A stretch of 64,000 bases of DNA, taken from NCBI RefSeq assembly GCF_025264645.1, contig NZ_CP073696.1, positions 124,001 to 188,000 of the forward strand, given 5' to 3'. The position numbers and the translations under genes were made by a program. The notes under the pieces are model-generated. The model saw only the letters and a list, made by a program, of their open reading frames with translations. It was not told the origin of the DNA and did not search any database. Source of the stretch: Edaphobacter lichenicola. Lineage in GTDB: Bacteria; Acidobacteriota; Terriglobia; Terriglobales; Acidobacteriaceae. This document shows positions 6,783 to 62,709 of this stretch, one piece after another (positions within the stretch are counted from its first letter, which is position 1; the number at the start of each line of letters is the position of its first letter).

Positions 6783-6832
6783 GTCAGTGAGTCGGGTATC
6801 GTCGTTTTTCTTCGGGTATAGATCCATGCTTT

Positions 6833-6932
6833 GTCCTGCCGGACGGGCCCACTGCTCGTGGAGAGGTCACTTCGTGACGGGTATACCCTTCCTTGGTGGG
6901 ATGAGCCGTGTTGGTCCTCCCTTCGGTCGGAG
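6833..6932 (+). repeat. Dispersed structured repeat family A, copy 1 (upstream of murG)
   Basis: About 100 bases here match 12657-12755 closely, starting with GTCCTGCCGGACGGGCCCAC. The copy contains three small hairpins: GTCC-TGCC-GGAC, GTCAC-TTC-GTGAC (6866-6878) and CTCC...GGAG at the end. In the other copy the second stem is GCCAC-TTC-GTGGC, a paired change that keeps the stem. It ends about 25 bases before the murG start and fills most of the ftsW-murG gap. Confidence 0.85.
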
Positions 6933-8124: not shown

Positions 8125-8390
8125 GGGGACCCCTCCCCCGGGGGTGTCGTTAAGTTATGTGTAATCAATTACTTGATGAAAATGGTGTTTGTAAAAATTT
8201 CATTCTAAAGGGTTTGCGGTCAAATATCAGTAAACAAACGGGCTATGGGTTAAATGGAAAAGCTCCGGTGATGTCCGGAGCTGTTTACTTCTTACAGTTC
8301 AAGTATAGCGGTTGGAGCATAACTCATACGCCACGCGGATGTGCTGGATTGGCGCGGGTTTTCGTGGTTTAGGGGCTTGACAAGGTTTTT
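8125..8390 (+). repeat. Dispersed long repeat family D, copy 1
   Basis: This ~265-base non-coding block aligns end to end with 62347-62612. Shared landmarks, in the same order and spacing, are a GGGG..CCCCC..GGGGGTG block, GTAAAAAT, AAAGGG.TT, CAAATAT, a GC hairpin, AGTATAGC, CTCATACGCCACGCG, GCGGGTTTTCGT and GGGGCTTGACA. Similarity is strongest in the last 90 bases. The left part is AT-rich compared with its surroundings. It lies between murG and a PLP decarboxylase gene. I see no ORF in it. Confidence 0.8.
8261..8282. terminator. Hairpin within repeat D1, terminator-like in both directions
   Basis: A perfect 8-bp stem, AGCTCCGG and CCGGAGCT, closes a 6-base loop. It is preceded by AAAA and followed by GTTTACTTCTT, so it could end transcription of murG on the + strand or of a minus-strand transcript. 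The equivalent hairpin in copy D2 has a different but still perfectly paired stem, which indicates selection on the structure. Confidence 0.55.
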
Positions 8391-8445: not shown

Positions 8446-8502
8446 GCGGTTCGCGCTTTGCGCGAATGCCCACATCTCAGAATCGAGATATGGGGCACCC
8501 GG
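8446..8502 (+). repeat. Double-hairpin repeat family B, copy 1
   Basis: This copy shows the full architecture: a first perfect stem TTCGCGC-TTT-GCGCGAA, then CCCACATCTC-AGAATC-GAGATATGGG with one mismatch, and the conserved end GGGGCACCCGG. Eight copies of this element are listed in the window. This one lies in the gap between murG and the PLP decarboxylase. Confidence 0.85.
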
Positions 8503-11475: not shown

Positions 11476-11540
11476 GCGGTTCGTGCGTGGCGCGAATAAC
11501 CCACCCTTTGTGATGAAGCTACAAAGGATGGGCCACCCGG
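11476..11540 (+). repeat. Double-hairpin repeat family B, copy 2
   Basis: This copy has GCGGTTCGTGC-GTG-GCGCGAA followed by a second stem CCACCCTTTGT and ACAAAGGATGG with one mismatch, and ends in GGGCCACCCGG. The loops and outer ends match copy 1, but the second stem has an entirely different sequence while staying paired. It fills part of the 303-base gap 11252-11554, which otherwise shows no gene. Confidence 0.85.
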
Positions 11541-12622: not shown

Positions 12623-12656
12623 GGATTTTATATATCACGAAGTTCGTTGCGAGAGT

Positions 12657-12755
12657 GTCCTGCCGGACGGGCCCACTGCGCGTGGGGCGGCCACTTCGTG
12701 GCGTGTGTACCTTTTTTTTTGTGGTGAGAGCGAGTGGTCCTCCCGTTGGTCGGAG
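12657..12755 (+). repeat. Dispersed structured repeat family A, copy 2 (upstream of murC)
   Basis: This ~99-base block matches 6833-6932. It begins GTCCTGCCGGACGGGCCCAC, carries the stem GCCAC-TTC-GTGGC (12690-12702) and ends TGGTCCTCCCGTTGGTCGGAG. A run of nine T bases interrupts the middle. It lies between the divergent amidase and murC starts, 78 bases before murC. Confidence 0.85.
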
Positions 12756-16942: not shown

Positions 16943-16993
16943 GCGGTTCGCGCTTCCGCGCGAATAACCCACTGTCGAGATGAGACACGACGA
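16943..16993 (+). repeat. Double-hairpin repeat family B, copy 3
   Basis: The first stem is perfect (TTCGCGC-TTCC-GCGCGAA) and is followed by TAACCCACTGTCGAGATGAG. The second stem is degenerate and the usual GGGCCACCC end is missing, so this is a decayed or partial copy. It sits 52 bases after ftsA, at the edge of the inserted gene block. Confidence 0.7.
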
Positions 16994-30587: not shown

Positions 30588-32630
30588 TTACTGGGAGGAT
30601 TTGCGGCGGACGGTGATCAAGAACAGAAGCGCGAGAGAGAAGAGTGAGACTGCATCGCCTATGGTTTGGTCGAAGGTGTGGGCGTAGGTGATGTCGATGG
30701 TGGAAGGACCTGCGGGGATAGGGATGGCGATGAGACCGTCGTCGCGCTGGTCTTGTTTGTTGCGGGCGGTGGCGGGGATGCCGTTGCGGGTGATGCGCCA
30801 GGCCGGGTAGTCGCGCAGGTGGAGGATCAGGTCTTCGGGAATGGTTGTGGTTACTGTGAAGTGCGGCGGGGTCGGGCCTGTTTGAGTACTGATAAAGTTT
30901 GCATCGGTTGGCTTGTCGGCTAGTGCGTTGGCGTTTGGGGCTTTGGCATTTGAGTCAGGGGAGAGCCAGAAGGCTGGATCGTTTTGGGCGAGGGAGTCAT
31001 TGTCGGCGGTGGTTGGGGTGTACTCGTCTGTAGGGTCGGTGCCTTGGTTAGAGCGGAAGAGGGCTTCTCGGGCGCGAGGCGCGTCTTCTTCGTCGCAGGG
31101 TTGGTGGAAGACGGAGTATGCGGATGAGGTGAGAGCTGCACTCAGGGCGATTGCTGCGGTTGCTGTTGCGATGGGTTTCCAGTGGAGGGGTGTAAGGGCT
31201 AAGGCGATGGTGAGTGCAAGAACTGCGGTCAGAATGGCGACCAGTCGCCACGGGAACTGCAGGAAAGCTAGTTCGGGGGCGTGCTTCCAGATGATTGCAG
31301 TCACCGGCGTGAGGAGGAGGGTAATGGCTATGGTCAGGATTGCCACGGATGCCAGGAGTGAGTTTGAGATTGGCGTGATGCGGTCGGGCAGAGGGGCGTG
31401 CGCGGTGGATGAGATATCCGGGTGGAGTGACGAAGAGGGTCGCGCTTCGGACGATGCCCATGTCTCAGAGTCGAAAGATGAGGCTCTCGGTTTGTTGGTG
31501 AGCTTGGATTTCTGTTCTGAGCTGCGATTGAGGTAGGTGATGGTGATGGCGGCTACGGTTAGCGCGATGACGATGATTGCGATGAGGGATGCGGTGTGGA
31601 GGACCTGGTCGTGAGGGACGTCGCCGGTGTGGTGGAAGAGGAAGTTGTCCTGGATGCGCATGTTGGGGATGATGGCCATCGCGATCTGGACGTAGCGGCG
31701 CTCATAGGCGGCAGGAAGGATGTAGAAGGCAGCCAGGCCGAGGCCGAGTGTAGTGCCTGCGATGGTGTTGATGGCAAGTTGAAGCGGTGTTTGAGTGGGT
31801 GTTTTCGGGATGCTGGGATAGGTTGCCACTGCGGTTCGCACGTCGCGCGAAGACCCGATCCTTCGTAAAGGCGCGAAGGATGGGCCACCCGACTGGGCTG
31901 CCATCTCAGCAGGTAAGGATGGGCCACTTGACGATTCGGATGAGAGTTTGATGGAGCTGGCATGAGCGGTCGCGCTGTCGGGCGCTGGCCATATCTCAGA
32001 GTCGAGATATGGGGCACCCGGTTTTTGGGCTAGTCGGACTGCGGTGAGGAGGGCCAGGGCATAGCAGCTCATAACGGCGGCGGGTGCGTTGGTAAGCCAG
32101 AGGAGAGCTACGGGGATGGCGATGCGGGGGATGGTGACGCGTCGGCGCAGAATGGCGTGGAGGAGTAAAGGGATAAAGGCGGCGGCGAGGAGTTCGGCGT
32201 AGGCGGTGCGCTCATATGCGGTGAAGAGCATGTAGGGGTTCACCGCGTAGAGGATTGCGGCGATGAGAGCAGCGGTGGGAGGAGCGAAGTCTCGTGCTAG
32301 GCGATGGAGCGCGAGGCCGCTGGCGGTGAGGGCTAGCCAGGTGTAGACGATAGGGGTTGCAGTGATTGGGAAGAGGAGGGTGAGGATGGCGCCTAGGGTC
32401 CAGGAGAGGGGCGGGTAGAAGACGAAGCGGGGTTCCCCTGCGTTCCAGGCGGCGGTGTAGGCCCAGTGGGGATGGAGGTTGCCGTGGGTGAACTGGCGGG
32501 CTGCTTCCATCCAGTTGAGGAGATGGAAGTCGAAGTCGTGGCCGCAGGAGCAGCCGTAGAGGATGAGTGGAAGGATGGCGATGCCGGCGGCCAGAGGGAT
32601 CAGGAGATAGGGGAGCCGGTCGCGCTGCAT
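30588..32630 (-). CDS. Large PTPS-related integral membrane protein with repeat insertions
   Basis: This 680-residue protein resembles the 6-pyruvoyl-tetrahydropterin-synthase-related membrane family, which is glycosyltransferase C-like: GHDFDFHLLNWMEAARQF, HWAYTAAWNAGEPRFVFYPPLSW, then many hydrophobic segments. The usual multi-span region is interrupted twice by hydrophilic Ser/Pro-rich stretches: residues about 200-270 (with GAPYLDSEIWPAPDSATA and SGGPSFAPLRRIGSSRDVRT) and 380-400 (SFDSETWASSEARPSSS). These are translations of family B repeats at 31831-31891, 31966-32021 and 31437-31490; the frame is intact through all three. The C-terminal domain ends in a last membrane span. Function unknown; likely lipid-linked sugar or surface polymer biology. 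Confidence 0.8.
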   Translation of the reverse strand: MQRDRLPYLLIPLAAGIAILPLILYGCSCGHDFDFHLLNWMEAARQFTHGNLHPHWAYTAAWNAGEPRFVFYPPLSWTLGAILTLLFPITATPIVYTWLALTASGLALHRLARDFAPPTAALIAAILYAVNPYMLFTAYERTAYAELLAAAFIPLLLHAILRRRVTIPRIAIPVALLWLTNAPAAVMSCYALALLTAVRLAQKPGAPYLDSEIWPAPDSATAHASSIKLSSESSSGPSLPAEMAAQSGGPSFAPLRRIGSSRDVRTAVATYPSIPKTPTQTPLQLAINTIAGTTLGLGLAAFYILPAAYERRYVQIAMAIIPNMRIQDNFLFHHTGDVPHDQVLHTASLIAIIVIALTVAAITITYLNRSSEQKSKLTNKPRASSFDSETWASSEARPSSSLHPDISSTAHAPLPDRITPISNSLLASVAILTIAITLLLTPVTAIIWKHAPELAFLQFPWRLVAILTAVLALTIALALTPLHWKPIATATAAIALSAALTSSAYSVFHQPCDEEDAPRAREALFRSNQGTDPTDEYTPTTADNDSLAQNDPAFWLSPDSNAKAPNANALADKPTDANFISTQTGPTPPHFTVTTTIPEDLILHLRDYPAWRITRNGIPATARNKQDQRDDGLIAIPIPAGPSTIDITYAHTFDQTIGDAVSLFSLALLFLITVRRKSSQ
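31437..31490 (+). repeat. Family B copy 6, inside the PTPS-related gene
   Basis: GGTCGCGCTTCGGACGATGC followed by CCATGTCTCAGAGTCGAAAG, ending CTCTCGG, corresponds to copy 5 with several changes; the second stem is degenerate. It lies within the reading frame of the minus-strand membrane-protein gene. Confidence 0.65.
31831..31891 (+). repeat. Family B copy 4, inside the PTPS-related gene
   Basis: GCGGTTCGCAC-GTC-GCGCGAA is followed by a perfect second stem ATCCTTCG and CGAAGGAT and the end GGGCCACCCG. A partial extra end AGGATGGGCCACTTG follows at 31916-31930. It is read in frame on the minus strand as FAPLRRIGSSRDVRT. Confidence 0.8.
31966..32021 (+). repeat. Family B copy 5, inside the PTPS-related gene
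   Basis: GCGGTCGCGC leads to a perfect 9-bp stem CCATATCTC-AGAGTC-GAGATATGG and the end GGGGCACCCGG. Its second stem is the same type as copy 1. It is read in frame on the minus strand as GAPYLDSEIWPAPDSA. Confidence 0.8.
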
Positions 32631-46514: not shown

Positions 46515-48698
46515 CTATTCGGATTTGTCCAGTGGGCGATCGGTGAAGAGGGCCTTGCCGGAGCTCTCGAAGATGAGGATCTTTCGATTGCCAAGTAGAC
46601 GATCGACGGTGTCACGCTGGTCGATGGGGACGAAGAGCAGCTTGCGTTCCCCGGTTCCCCAGGTGGCGAGGAGATCCTGTGGTTTGAGGAAGATCGGCGG
46701 GGCGTCGGGGAAGGTGGATCCGAAGAGCATAGAGGTTGAGCGTCCGTCGACGAGAAAGACTTGACGGCCAAGGTAGAAGGGGATCGAGGAGCCGTAGGAC
46801 TGGTCGCCATAGAAGAGGATTTTATTGTTGCGAGAGATGGAGCGGTTGGCTTCGAGGTGCTCGATGGTGTCGGCGAAGGTCTTTGACGAGAGCATCGGTG
46901 TGAATCGAACGAAGGCGATGTGGGCGGCGATGAGGAAGATCGCAGACGTGAGGGCGACGGTTGCGGTGGAGGCGAGATGACGGCGCTGCGAACGTAAGAG
47001 CCAAGCTATTGCAGGGCCGAAGCAGAACGCCAGTGCTGCGAGCGTGGCGGGAAGGCGGAGAGCGGCGAAGCTGGGGCCGGTGAGGTCGAAGAGACTGGAC
47101 ATCGAGAGGGTGTAGTCGCCGACGCCGCGGTGGGCGAGGAGGTCACCGATGTCGGCCACGAAGGGGAGGTGACGAGATGTCCAAAGACCGTAGGCGAGTG
47201 TGATTGTGATGGCGACGCCGAGGACAGTGAAGATGGCGTGCGCCGTGGTGATTGCGCGGCGTGATGCTGGATCGAAGGCGAAGACTTGTTCTGCATGGGT
47301 GAGTGCCGCGGCGAGGAGGATCAGGAGCGGGAGGTATGCGGGGAAGGTGTAGTACTCCTGGTTGGTGGAGAGAGAGAAGAAGACAAGTACGAGCGAGGCG
47401 AAGAGACTGAGGAGAAGAGTTGAGCGTTGCGGGAAGGTGAAGGCGTGAAGGAGTGGGTTTCCGGAGGGGGAGTTGAGCTGGCGGTGGCGGAGTTCGTAGA
47501 CGAGCAGGGCGATAATAGCGAGAAAGACTGTGAAGAGATAAGGGATGTGGGCGGTGTCACGCAGGAAGATACCGACGACGACGACGGCGAACGGCTGCCA
47601 ATAGGAGATACGGTTGGCTATGGGGTTGGTTTTGTTGAAGCCGGTGAAGCTGCCCCAGGCTTGGCGAATAAGAACTCCGCAGAAGAGCGACCAGGGGAAT
47701 AGCCAGACGAGATGGAGGCTCCAGAAGAGATAGCCGGGGAGCTTGTTGTAGTCCATCGGGTAACGCTTGCCAAGGAAGCGGAGGAAGTGCTCGTTGATGA
47801 AGTAGAACCAGAAGAATCCATGCCCGTTCATGCCACCGGTATTGCGCAGGCCGGCGAGTATGTGCCAAGGAGCGGCGATAAGGAGGAAGAGAAGAAGACC
47901 GGGGAACGGTTTGAGGTTGCGCCAGTTTTCGTATTCGCCAGAGAGAATGAGATAGACGATGGCGGCGCCAAAGAAGAAGACGAGAGCGACGAGACCTTTG
48001 GTTAGCACGGCCAGGGCTAAGGCTGTCCACATGAGGTAGGGGTGGATGGCGTGGGGGAGAAGGCGGTTCGCGCCTTCACGCGAATGATCCACTCTTTGCG
48101 ATGATGCCGTGGAGGATGGTCCACTCGGATCTTTTACCGTGGCGTCTTGACGGTTTGGACCGGCAAGTTCGGAGGGTTGGAGCGATTGAAGGAGGGAGTA
48201 GAGGGCGATGCAGAGGAAGAGGGAGAGGAGGACCTCGGGGATTAAATAGCGGGTGAAGAGGAAGACGCCGATGGAGGTGAGGGTGGCAAGGCCGGCGTAG
48301 AAGGCGGCGCGTTGGTTGAAGGCTCGGTAGGCCCAATGGTACCCGAGAAAGGCCAGAAGAAGGACGCCAATGGCCTGAGGGCAGTGGGCAGCGAAGGTGT
48401 TGAAGCCGAAAAGACGGAAGCTGAGGGCGACCAGCCAGTAGGGGAGGGGCGCTTTCTCGAGGTAACGGATACCGTTGACGCGAAGGGTGACTAGATCGCC
48501 GGAGAGTGCCATGTTGCGGGCGGCGCTGGCGTGGGTGGCATCGGCGTCGTCGAGCAGTGGAGGGCTGAAGAGCGCTGCAAAGAAGATAATGAGCCATAGG
48601 CCGCTGAGGATGAAGAGGGCGGTGCGGCGTCGGGGGGTACTGGTGTAGAGCGCTGCCGGCTGTTCGGCGAGTGTTTCCAGGAGAGATTGATTTGTCAT
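46515..48698 (-). CDS. ArnT-like GT39-family membrane glycosyltransferase B
   Basis: The 727-residue protein parallels the neighbouring GT39 protein: LLDDADATHASAARNMALSG, NGIRYLEKAPLPYWLVALS, about 12 membrane spans and a soluble C-terminal domain. The catalytic Asp position is kept (DDADAT). An extra hydrophilic segment of about 40 residues (about 180-225, including DPSGPSSTASSQRVDHSREG) sits between two spans and is coded largely by family B repeat copy 7 read in frame. The acceptor is unknown. The start faces ppx/gppA divergently across 148 bases. Confidence 0.85.
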   Translation of the reverse strand: MTNQSLLETLAEQPAALYTSTPRRRTALFILSGLWLIIFFAALFSPPLLDDADATHASAARNMALSGDLVTLRVNGIRYLEKAPLPYWLVALSFRLFGFNTFAAHCPQAIGVLLLAFLGYHWAYRAFNQRAAFYAGLATLTSIGVFLFTRYLIPEVLLSLFLCIALYSLLQSLQPSELAGPNRQDATVKDPSGPSSTASSQRVDHSREGANRLLPHAIHPYLMWTALALAVLTKGLVALVFFFGAAIVYLILSGEYENWRNLKPFPGLLLFLLIAAPWHILAGLRNTGGMNGHGFFWFYFINEHFLRFLGKRYPMDYNKLPGYLFWSLHLVWLFPWSLFCGVLIRQAWGSFTGFNKTNPIANRISYWQPFAVVVVGIFLRDTAHIPYLFTVFLAIIALLVYELRHRQLNSPSGNPLLHAFTFPQRSTLLLSLFASLVLVFFSLSTNQEYYTFPAYLPLLILLAAALTHAEQVFAFDPASRRAITTAHAIFTVLGVAITITLAYGLWTSRHLPFVADIGDLLAHRGVGDYTLSMSSLFDLTGPSFAALRLPATLAALAFCFGPAIAWLLRSQRRHLASTATVALTSAIFLIAAHIAFVRFTPMLSSKTFADTIEHLEANRSISRNNKILFYGDQSYGSSIPFYLGRQVFLVDGRSTSMLFGSTFPDAPPIFLKPQDLLATWGTGERKLLFVPIDQRDTVDRLLGNRKILIFESSGKALFTDRPLDKSE
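48063..48128 (+). repeat. Family B copy 7, inside GT39 gene B
   Basis: GCGGTTCGCG-CCTTCA-CGCGAA gives the first stem (TTCGCG/CGCGAA); the second part reads ATGATCCACTCTTTGCGATG and ends GGATGGTCCACTCGG. The second stem is decayed. It is in frame in the minus-strand gene. Confidence 0.75.
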
Positions 48699-48846
48699 GA
48701 TTTCGGGTGCTCTCTAAGCATAAAGGTTTATCGGCCAGGTCGTGTGGGGGTAGGAGCGGTCGCGCCGAGAATATACGCTCGGAAGTAAAGGGGGATGTAA
48801 TCTGCTGGAGGTGGGATTTTTTGACGCCTGAGGTGATACCGGAACA

Positions 48847-62346: not shown

Positions 62347-62612
62347 GAGGGGTCCCCCCCGGGGGTGGTATAGGTAAGCTGCCTGTATATAACAACTTAC
62401 GATTTTGGCTGCCCGTAAAAATAAGTATCGAAAGGGCTTAGAGGCAAATATGTCATTCAAGAGGACTTATGCGCGTAACGCACGGAAAGCCCCGCTATTC
62501 GGGGCTTTTCTCACTCTTTAATGAGTATAGCAGCTTGGGTAGAACTCATACGCCACGCGAATCTGCTGGACTGGAGCGGGTTTTCGTTGATTTGGGGCTT
62601 GACAGGATTTTC
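62347..62612 (+). repeat. Dispersed long repeat family D, copy 2
   Basis: This ~265-base block aligns with 8125-8390 along its whole length (see that entry for shared landmarks). AGTATAGCAG through CTCATACGCCACGCGAATCT is the best-conserved part. On the minus strand it offers a TATACT box (62524-62529) followed by the hairpin, upstream of mnmA. Confidence 0.8.
62486..62508. terminator. Hairpin within repeat D2
   Basis: AAAGCCCCG-CTATT-CGGGGCTTT is a perfect 9-bp stem followed on the + strand by TCTCACTCTTTA. It corresponds by position to 8261-8282 but the stem sequence differs with pairing kept. It can act as a terminator for either strand. Confidence 0.6.
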
Positions 62613-62642: not shown

Positions 62643-62709
62643 GCGGTTCGCGTGTGACGCGAGTAACCCACCCTTTGCGATGAGACTGCAAAGAATGGGC
62701 GGTCCGACC
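62643..62709 (+). repeat. Double-hairpin repeat family B, copy 8
   Basis: GCGGTTCGCG-TGTGA-CGCGAG is followed by ACCCACCCTTTGCGATGAGA and GCAAAGAATGGGC, so the second stem is of the copy 2 type (CCCTTTGC/GCAAAGAATGG). It sits directly after repeat D2, as copy 1 sits after D1. Confidence 0.75.

Follow-up and report, generated by a model that had tools for sequence, protein, structure and literature searches.

Several described systems of short bacterial repeats bear on the one treated here. REPs and REPINs with their RAYT (TnpA-REP) genes are short multicopy hairpin repeats that lie mainly outside genes, are linked to Y1 transposases and occur occasionally in ORFs. One survey gives REPs as 20–40 nt long with one hairpin, and reports that they also occur inside ORFs in several genera; in recB, two Xanthomonas species have them at about the same site (PMC3733652). 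Another study describes a head of GTAG or GT(A/G)G before the REP palindrome (PMC2817692), and a third mentions that on the P. fluorescens SBW25 chromosome five REP arrays at ~2 Mb share an orientation and six at ~4 Mb have the opposite one (PMC3116915). For Acidobacteria, the survey describes TIRYT/TIRtron elements in K. versatilis, A. capsulatum, G. mallensis and T. saanensis, in which Y1 transposases are flanked by longer repeats, and one of its figure legends mentions double palindromic TIRs (PMC3733652). A REP count for Granulicella aggregans is given in the RepRanger paper (PMC12306157). Rickettsia palindromic elements (RPEs) are, according to a review, ~150 bp long, form ten families and lie in frame in Rickettsia genes (PMC10969869); the survey equates RPE-4 and RPE-6 with short CGTC repeats, for which it sees no link to transposase genes (PMC3733652). 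Finally, insertion sequences of the IS200/IS605 type are described as inserting into the lagging-strand template, with an orientation that follows replication (PMC5371812; PMC6006769).

Here we describe a repeat, family B, from Edaphobacter lichenicola (GCF_025264645.1). The stretch analysed, referred to as the window, is the 64,000 nucleotides at positions 124,001–188,000 of NZ_CP073696.1. Family B resembles the REP/RAYT system in being a multicopy, mainly extragenic, Y1-linked hairpin repeat that occasionally enters ORFs, but it differs in its unit of ~56–65 nt with two different hairpins, in landing loops that recur across the genus and in a near-strict orientation on the C-rich strand. With TIRYT/TIRtron elements it shares, by their description, the phylum and the Y1 link. 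Like the RPEs it is inserted in frame in conserved, functional genes, but it belongs to another phylum; its Y1-linked unit of ~56–65 nt compares with the ~150 bp given for RPEs and with the short CGTC repeats given for RPE-4 and RPE-6. With IS200/IS605 elements (IS608, ISDra2), whose Y1/HUH enzymes recognise hairpins, it has in common the link to such an enzyme, the hairpins and an orientation bias, but those are autonomous insertion sequences, whereas here the element is a 60-nt passenger and the bias is measured against GC skew. A sequence-only reading of this DNA had taken Rickettsia as the known precedent for such insertions; the REPs found inside ORFs in several genera (PMC3733652) show that it is not the only one. 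In-frame capture is thus already known in kind; this case is marked by its repeat family, its recurrent landing loops and its near-strict strand rule. In the open-licence literature we found no report of in-frame palindromes in Acidobacteriota (Edaphobacter, Granulicella, Tunturiibacter), no report on REP orientation relative to GC skew and no earlier description of family B.

The repeat family in the window

Two sub-types, B1 and B2, share one plan. A head, CGGGTG(G/C)CCCAT, opens hairpin 1 and is followed by TTA or CA, and the second hairpin reads TTCGCGC...GCGCGAACCGC. Before the stem stands GTGG in B1 and GTGC in B2, and CGTC is not visible at the ends of the consensus of R1 or R2, the two covariance models that were built for the family. 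R2 was trained on 17 B2 copies, among them none of the three from the PTPS-related gene discussed below, while the training set of R1 included one of these (the copy at 31831). Outside genes, as judged by simple gene calls, the window contains two B1 copies on the minus strand (11476..11539, R1 88.2 bits, and 62643..62706, R1 78.7 bits, both in training), a B2 copy near the consensus (8446..8501, minus strand, R2 88.4 bits, in training) and a shortened B1-like copy (16943..16989, minus strand, R1 32.7 bits). An Rfam search of the window gave no match.

In the whole genome there are at least 68 places with a family B repeat, a lower bound since it comes from scoring the best 150 of 3990 first-look candidates, plus 40 of 48. 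The places were pooled under mixed criteria (R1 E ≤0.1, blastn E ≤1e-3, and one added and then confirmed by R2) after opposite-strand echoes of one place had been removed, and they include one overlapping pair (5103781/5103814). Ten of the 68 lie within ~80 kb that extend past the window (G000:C1:132-213 kb), three of them in the PTPS-related gene, while the mean is one place per 83 kb.

Other repeats are visible in the same DNA. One of ~90 nt occurs at window positions 8302–8389 and 62524–62611 (83% identical); at 7 of 10 matched places it lies ≤184 bp past the tail of a B copy, in the same relation in 7/7, a pairing that is biased because the loci were picked around B copies. A further repeat (TGTCCTGCCGGACGGGCCCACTGC...) is found at 6832–6890 and 12656–12714 (86% identical), with more matches elsewhere in the genome.

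Three copies in one membrane-protein gene

The host gene (30588..32630, minus strand) is open over 680 codons and encodes a multi-spanning membrane protein, with ten hydrophobic segments in a crude scan. Its placement as PTPS_related (Pfam PF10131) is weak, at 20.6 bits under a curated cut-off of 26.4. The genus was represented by 60 genomes, including that of E. lichenicola, and 53 of them contain a match to it.

All three copies are on the minus strand and are recovered in the window by R2 without having been used for its training, with E-values that are rough by the search tool's own statement. In the first loop, B2 copy 1 (31966..32020; R2 50.1 bits, E 1.1e-12; blastn 85% to an intergenic copy) is read as PGAPYLDSEIWPAPDSATA, and B1 copy 2 (31831..31891; R2 33.7 bits, E 7e-8; R1 65.3 bits, in training; also matched by blastn within the genome) is read as SGGPSFAPLRRIGSSRDVRTA. 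Between them, a piece of the head of another copy (AAGTGGCCCATCCTTACC; 31912..31929, approximate, minus strand) was recognised by eye and is unscored. In the second loop, copy 3 is a decayed B2 copy (31435..31489; R2 37.6 bits, E 5.2e-9) read as RASSFDSETWASSEARPS. It has lost several hairpin pairs; clearer copies stand at the same place in relatives, and P0001, a protein with 17 differences over 680 residues, has a version nearer the repeat consensus at this site. R1 lists only copy 2 of the three. The sequence-only reading, which had claimed three family B repeats in frame in this gene, is borne out: the frame is open, its coordinates were right to within 2 bases and its three peptides were correct. 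Its loops are indeed Ser/Pro-rich, as low-complexity loops that resembled the repeat by chance would be; but the untrained R2 scores, obtained in 64 kb, make chance a poor explanation, and so does the replacement of the loop by another dispersed family in relatives, so that a coincidence of this kind is barely credible.

An AlphaFold2 model of the protein (62 alignment rows; mean pLDDT 60.2, pTM 0.48, that is, modest confidence) predicts coil, mostly of low pLDDT, at residues 202–281 and 379–420, flanked by helices at 182–201 and 282–309 for the first segment and at 338–378 and 421–440 for the second. The repeat copies begin near residues 203, 246 and 380. The model thus agrees with the earlier proposal that in-frame palindromic insertions have here, in Acidobacteriota, created additional loops that separate membrane helices. 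Applied to the compact versions of the two loops, the positive-inside rule would place them in the cytoplasm.

The gene could also be decaying, with insertions tolerated in a protein that the cell can do without. This is very improbable. The protein exceeds L017, a compact orthologue of 543 aa that has neither segment, by 137 aa, but outside the loops the gene is under purifying selection, with a core dN/dS of ~0.18–0.30 against ten relatives; orthologue matches are free of internal stops, except for one weak 21-bit match, and the same phenomenon is seen in AspRS and a cysteine desulfurase.

The same loops in relatives

From the genomes, 50 ORFs of the host gene were extracted (that of E. lichenicola included), and loops were counted in an alignment of 168 proteins (163 distinct), made up of the query, 120 proteins listed among 3429 matches and 47 from the genomes. 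Loop 1 is 89 aa long in the query and ≤24 aa in 45 of the 168 aligned proteins, 44 of which have no repeat signature. Custom regular expressions, which overlook some repeat peptides, called such a peptide in loop 1 of 99/168 proteins and in loop 2 of 99/168. Many relatives have other repeat-derived peptides in these loops: PGAPYLDSEMWASRESATA (B2), GGPSFAVSSQRVGYSRHARTAV (B1), RVPHPSQSHREGWD (B1 read in a different frame) and SSRPERSEVERPPHF, which belongs to a second family. This second family is itself dispersed: G014 has 42 matches, G029 has 26 and G032 has 32, and all three have it in loop 2; in genomes without it in the loop there are 7 matches (G048) and 3 (E. lichenicola). In loop 2 of P0027, P0040, P0078 and P0112, a GSPTSAFARWGGE- or GPPASAFARWGGE-like segment lies in, or next to, a peptide of B type, as though two repeats were nested.

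On a FastTree tree computed without the loop columns, loop 1 changed between long and short at least 13 times, and the repeat class changed at least 26 times in loop 1 and at least 54 times in loop 2; the class figures are rough and inflated, as some rows are misclassed by the regular expressions. By these comparisons the two loops of the PTPS-related gene appear as recurrent landing places for repeats, genus-wide. The earlier expectation had been simpler, that what is missing from orthologues would begin and end just where the copies do. This did not hold: the loops contain filler, and other families in many relatives. DNA alignments of relatives were inspected for precise empty sites with a duplicated target, and none was seen; the copies are accompanied by flanking filler. 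The sequence-only reading had also named copy-free orthologues with the same segments, at similar length, as the mark of a coincidental match. The segments themselves were not found in that state, but there are long loops in which no repeat is visible. Of the 69 signature-less rows, 17 have a loop of ≥40 aa. Several of these (P0012, P0060, P0066, L023, L030) contain repeat peptides by eye that the expressions overlooked; in others (L039, L044 and P0038 among them) the loop consists of unrelated filler.

Copies in other genes

Six of the 68 places in E. lichenicola are clearly inside conserved genes, and a simple codon score puts all the others except L109 in intergenic DNA or at the start of an ORF. 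Beside the three in the PTPS-related gene there is one in a PMT_2 gene, one in a cysteine desulfurase gene and one, antisense, in the AspRS gene; a rule that copies are always in sense was dropped because of the last. The PMT_2 glycosyltransferase-like gene (46515..48698, minus strand; 727 aa from the first ATG) matches Pfam PF13231 with E 6.1e-12 on the stop-to-stop frame 46515-48713, and its B1 copy (48063..48127, minus strand; R1 66.5 bits, in training) is read as PSGPSSTASSQRVDHSREGANRL. For each gene 29 relatives were compared, of 56 to 58 matched. The cysteine desulfurase loop has 21–25 aa in 17/29 relatives, 50–110 aa in eight with a model match and 31–56 aa in four without one. The AspRS loop varies from 22 to 49 aa among the 29 relatives used, and the PMT_2 loop from 15 to 56 aa in the 28 that cover the site. 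When the cysteine desulfurase is aligned to IscS (PDB 1p3w), the alignment ends at query residue 266 (chain 261) and restarts at 308 (chain 269); the repeat copy corresponds to codons 282–303, within this gap. REP-like DNA is captured in permissive loops of four gene families. At L109 (G000:C1:4279026-4279085) a B2 copy read as AGCPYLDFEMWASAREARTAL lies close to where an open frame of ~325 codons with no Pfam match begins.

The loops might be there because they are useful, that is, the inserted peptides or the mRNA hairpins could have been co-opted and selected. The same two loops of the PTPS-related protein are repeatedly refilled, several copies in coding sequence have kept a strong match to the two-hairpin model (as much as 70.8 bits), and a single phase prevails among the sense copies within genes (31/35, leaving aside L052, antisense, and L023, sense, both with E ~0.03, and the L051 row at a gene start). 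This bias does not come from stop codons alone, as of 40 copies outside genes 34 are open in the dominant sense phase and 31 and 27 in the other two. On the other hand, compact orthologues manage without the inserts, repeat families replace each other, and copy 3 of E. lichenicola has lost several of its pairs. The inserts also change ~4.5 times faster than the rest of the protein in near-identical relatives: in the comparison with P0001, substitutions affect 8 of the 112 residues in the inserts and 9 of the 568 elsewhere (Fisher P 0.0028). Selection for a function of the inserts is thus improbable; they are probably neutral, and probably expressed.

Association with Y1 transposase genes

Matches to Y1_Tnp are present in 49 of the 60 genomes, including that of E. 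lichenicola, which retains only a single short remnant (24.4 bits over 58 model positions) with a repeat copy 80 bp away. Among relatives, an R1 copy lies ≤260 bp from the Y1 match at 12/30 loci, and on both sides of it at seven; with the E. lichenicola remnant this makes 13/31, and the other 18 of the 31 Y1 loci have no copy nearby. Counted by copies, 21 of the 31 best rows (out of 44, the 13 weakest being dropped) fall within 260 bp of a Y1 match, a zone that makes up 15.8 of 94.8 kb, the threshold having been chosen after the distances were seen. Family B is associated with Y1 (RAYT-like) genes. At the loci with copies on both sides these are direct in four (L080, L081, L082, L084) and inverted in three (L072, L074, L078), so this is not the textbook RAYT pair, which is inverted. 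A Y1 enzyme probably mobilises the repeat.

Orientation on the C-rich strand

The window has a very strong GC skew, ~+0.3 on the plus strand over positions 1–64000 whatever the gene direction. Measured on the plus strand it is 0.295 across genes of that strand, 0.299 across those of the minus strand and 0.246 in the DNA outside genes, and with nearly equal values over both kinds of gene, gene direction is not the cause. Along the chromosome the sign of the skew flips several times, in samples of ~3 kb around the copies. An early idea took the strand pattern of the copies as the sign of an origin at contig position 0. It was given up because dnaA is at 4.42 Mb and the sign changes are frequent, and the local skew was used instead. 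dnaA does stand between plus copies (4.03–4.28 Mb) and minus copies (4.57–5.01 Mb), but with so many sign changes along the chromosome the skew is an indirect stand-in for replication direction.

With this measure, 65 of the 68 copies in E. lichenicola have their head-to-tail strand on the locally C-rich side of the duplex (P 3.6e-16, assuming independent trials), and the three exceptions have a skew of ≤0.1. From 150 matches in four other genomes, 66 copies spread along the contigs were taken, and 64 of these are on the C-rich strand (G042 19/20, G039 19/20, G059 17/17, G048 9/9). At other loci of relatives the count is 71/78, with six of the seven exceptions at a skew below 0.06; this set leaves out rows with E >1e-3 and shares five loci with the four-genome set. 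The rule also predicts the orientation of copies within genes in 38 of 39 cases: sense in the PTPS-related, cysteine desulfurase and PMT_2 genes and antisense in the AspRS gene. Through shared descent, the in-gene and orientation counts are not independent. The second family (a GAAGTGGAGAGACCC-type motif) in loop 2 of L010, L011, L014, L015 and L016 is on the C-rich strand in 5/5 loci, so the strand rule may cover more than one family.

Composition of the target might produce the same pattern with replication uninvolved, if insertion needed a pyrimidine-rich site and such sites were commoner on the C-rich strand. The E. lichenicola copies do have a 3' flank resembling NYTCYY, with T at +3 in 33/40 and C at +4 in 30/40. 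A simple model of flank preference, which sums site likelihoods on both strands for 56 of the 68 places with weights from 40 of the same copies, nevertheless expects only 38.9 (3' flank) or 43.4 (both flanks) of the 56 on the C-rich strand, and 54 are observed (simulated P ≤5e-5). Site composition is therefore an unlikely, if not negligible, cause of the orientation. With GC skew as a proxy for replication direction, the orientation of family B would follow the replication fork, and by analogy the rule fits single-strand, fork-coupled insertion as in IS200/IS605.

A proposed course of events and what it means

Taken together, family B is likely a REP-like mobile repeat of ~60 nt, moved by Y1 enzymes as single-stranded DNA, inserted in the orientation of the C-rich strand and surviving in protein loops. 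It would be non-autonomous mobile DNA with two hairpins, moved most probably as single-stranded DNA by Y1/HUH transposases of the RAYT or TIRYT type. The head-to-tail strand, nearly always on the C-rich strand, would have a fixed orientation to the fork by the usual reading of GC skew, and a Y1 enzyme acting on the hairpins with IS200/IS605-type chemistry could give the observed orientation rule. Copies that hit genes would survive only where length, frame and place make them harmless, which is in protein loops. Once captured they would be translated and drift fast, and other repeat families would displace or join them.

The finding calls for caution in annotation and in the search for homologues, as long loops such as PGAPYLDSEMWAS in this group are repeat-derived. 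It also offers a natural series of proteins, two of them enzymes of core metabolism or translation, that seem to have taken up mobile DNA repeatedly at the same loops, and the cost and use of such loop insertions become measurable. The orientation rule is a testable link between REP-type elements, whose spread is poorly understood, and single-strand transposition at forks. It is an evenly balanced proposition that some conserved protein loops are standing docks for mobile hairpins, which across a genus take in the repeat family abundant at the time, and that with insertion on one strand at the fork, the direction of replication sets whether a sense or an antisense peptide results. If this is true, the replication strand biases which new protein segments can arise, and the asymmetry between strands may have a part in the choice of new peptides that a protein takes up.
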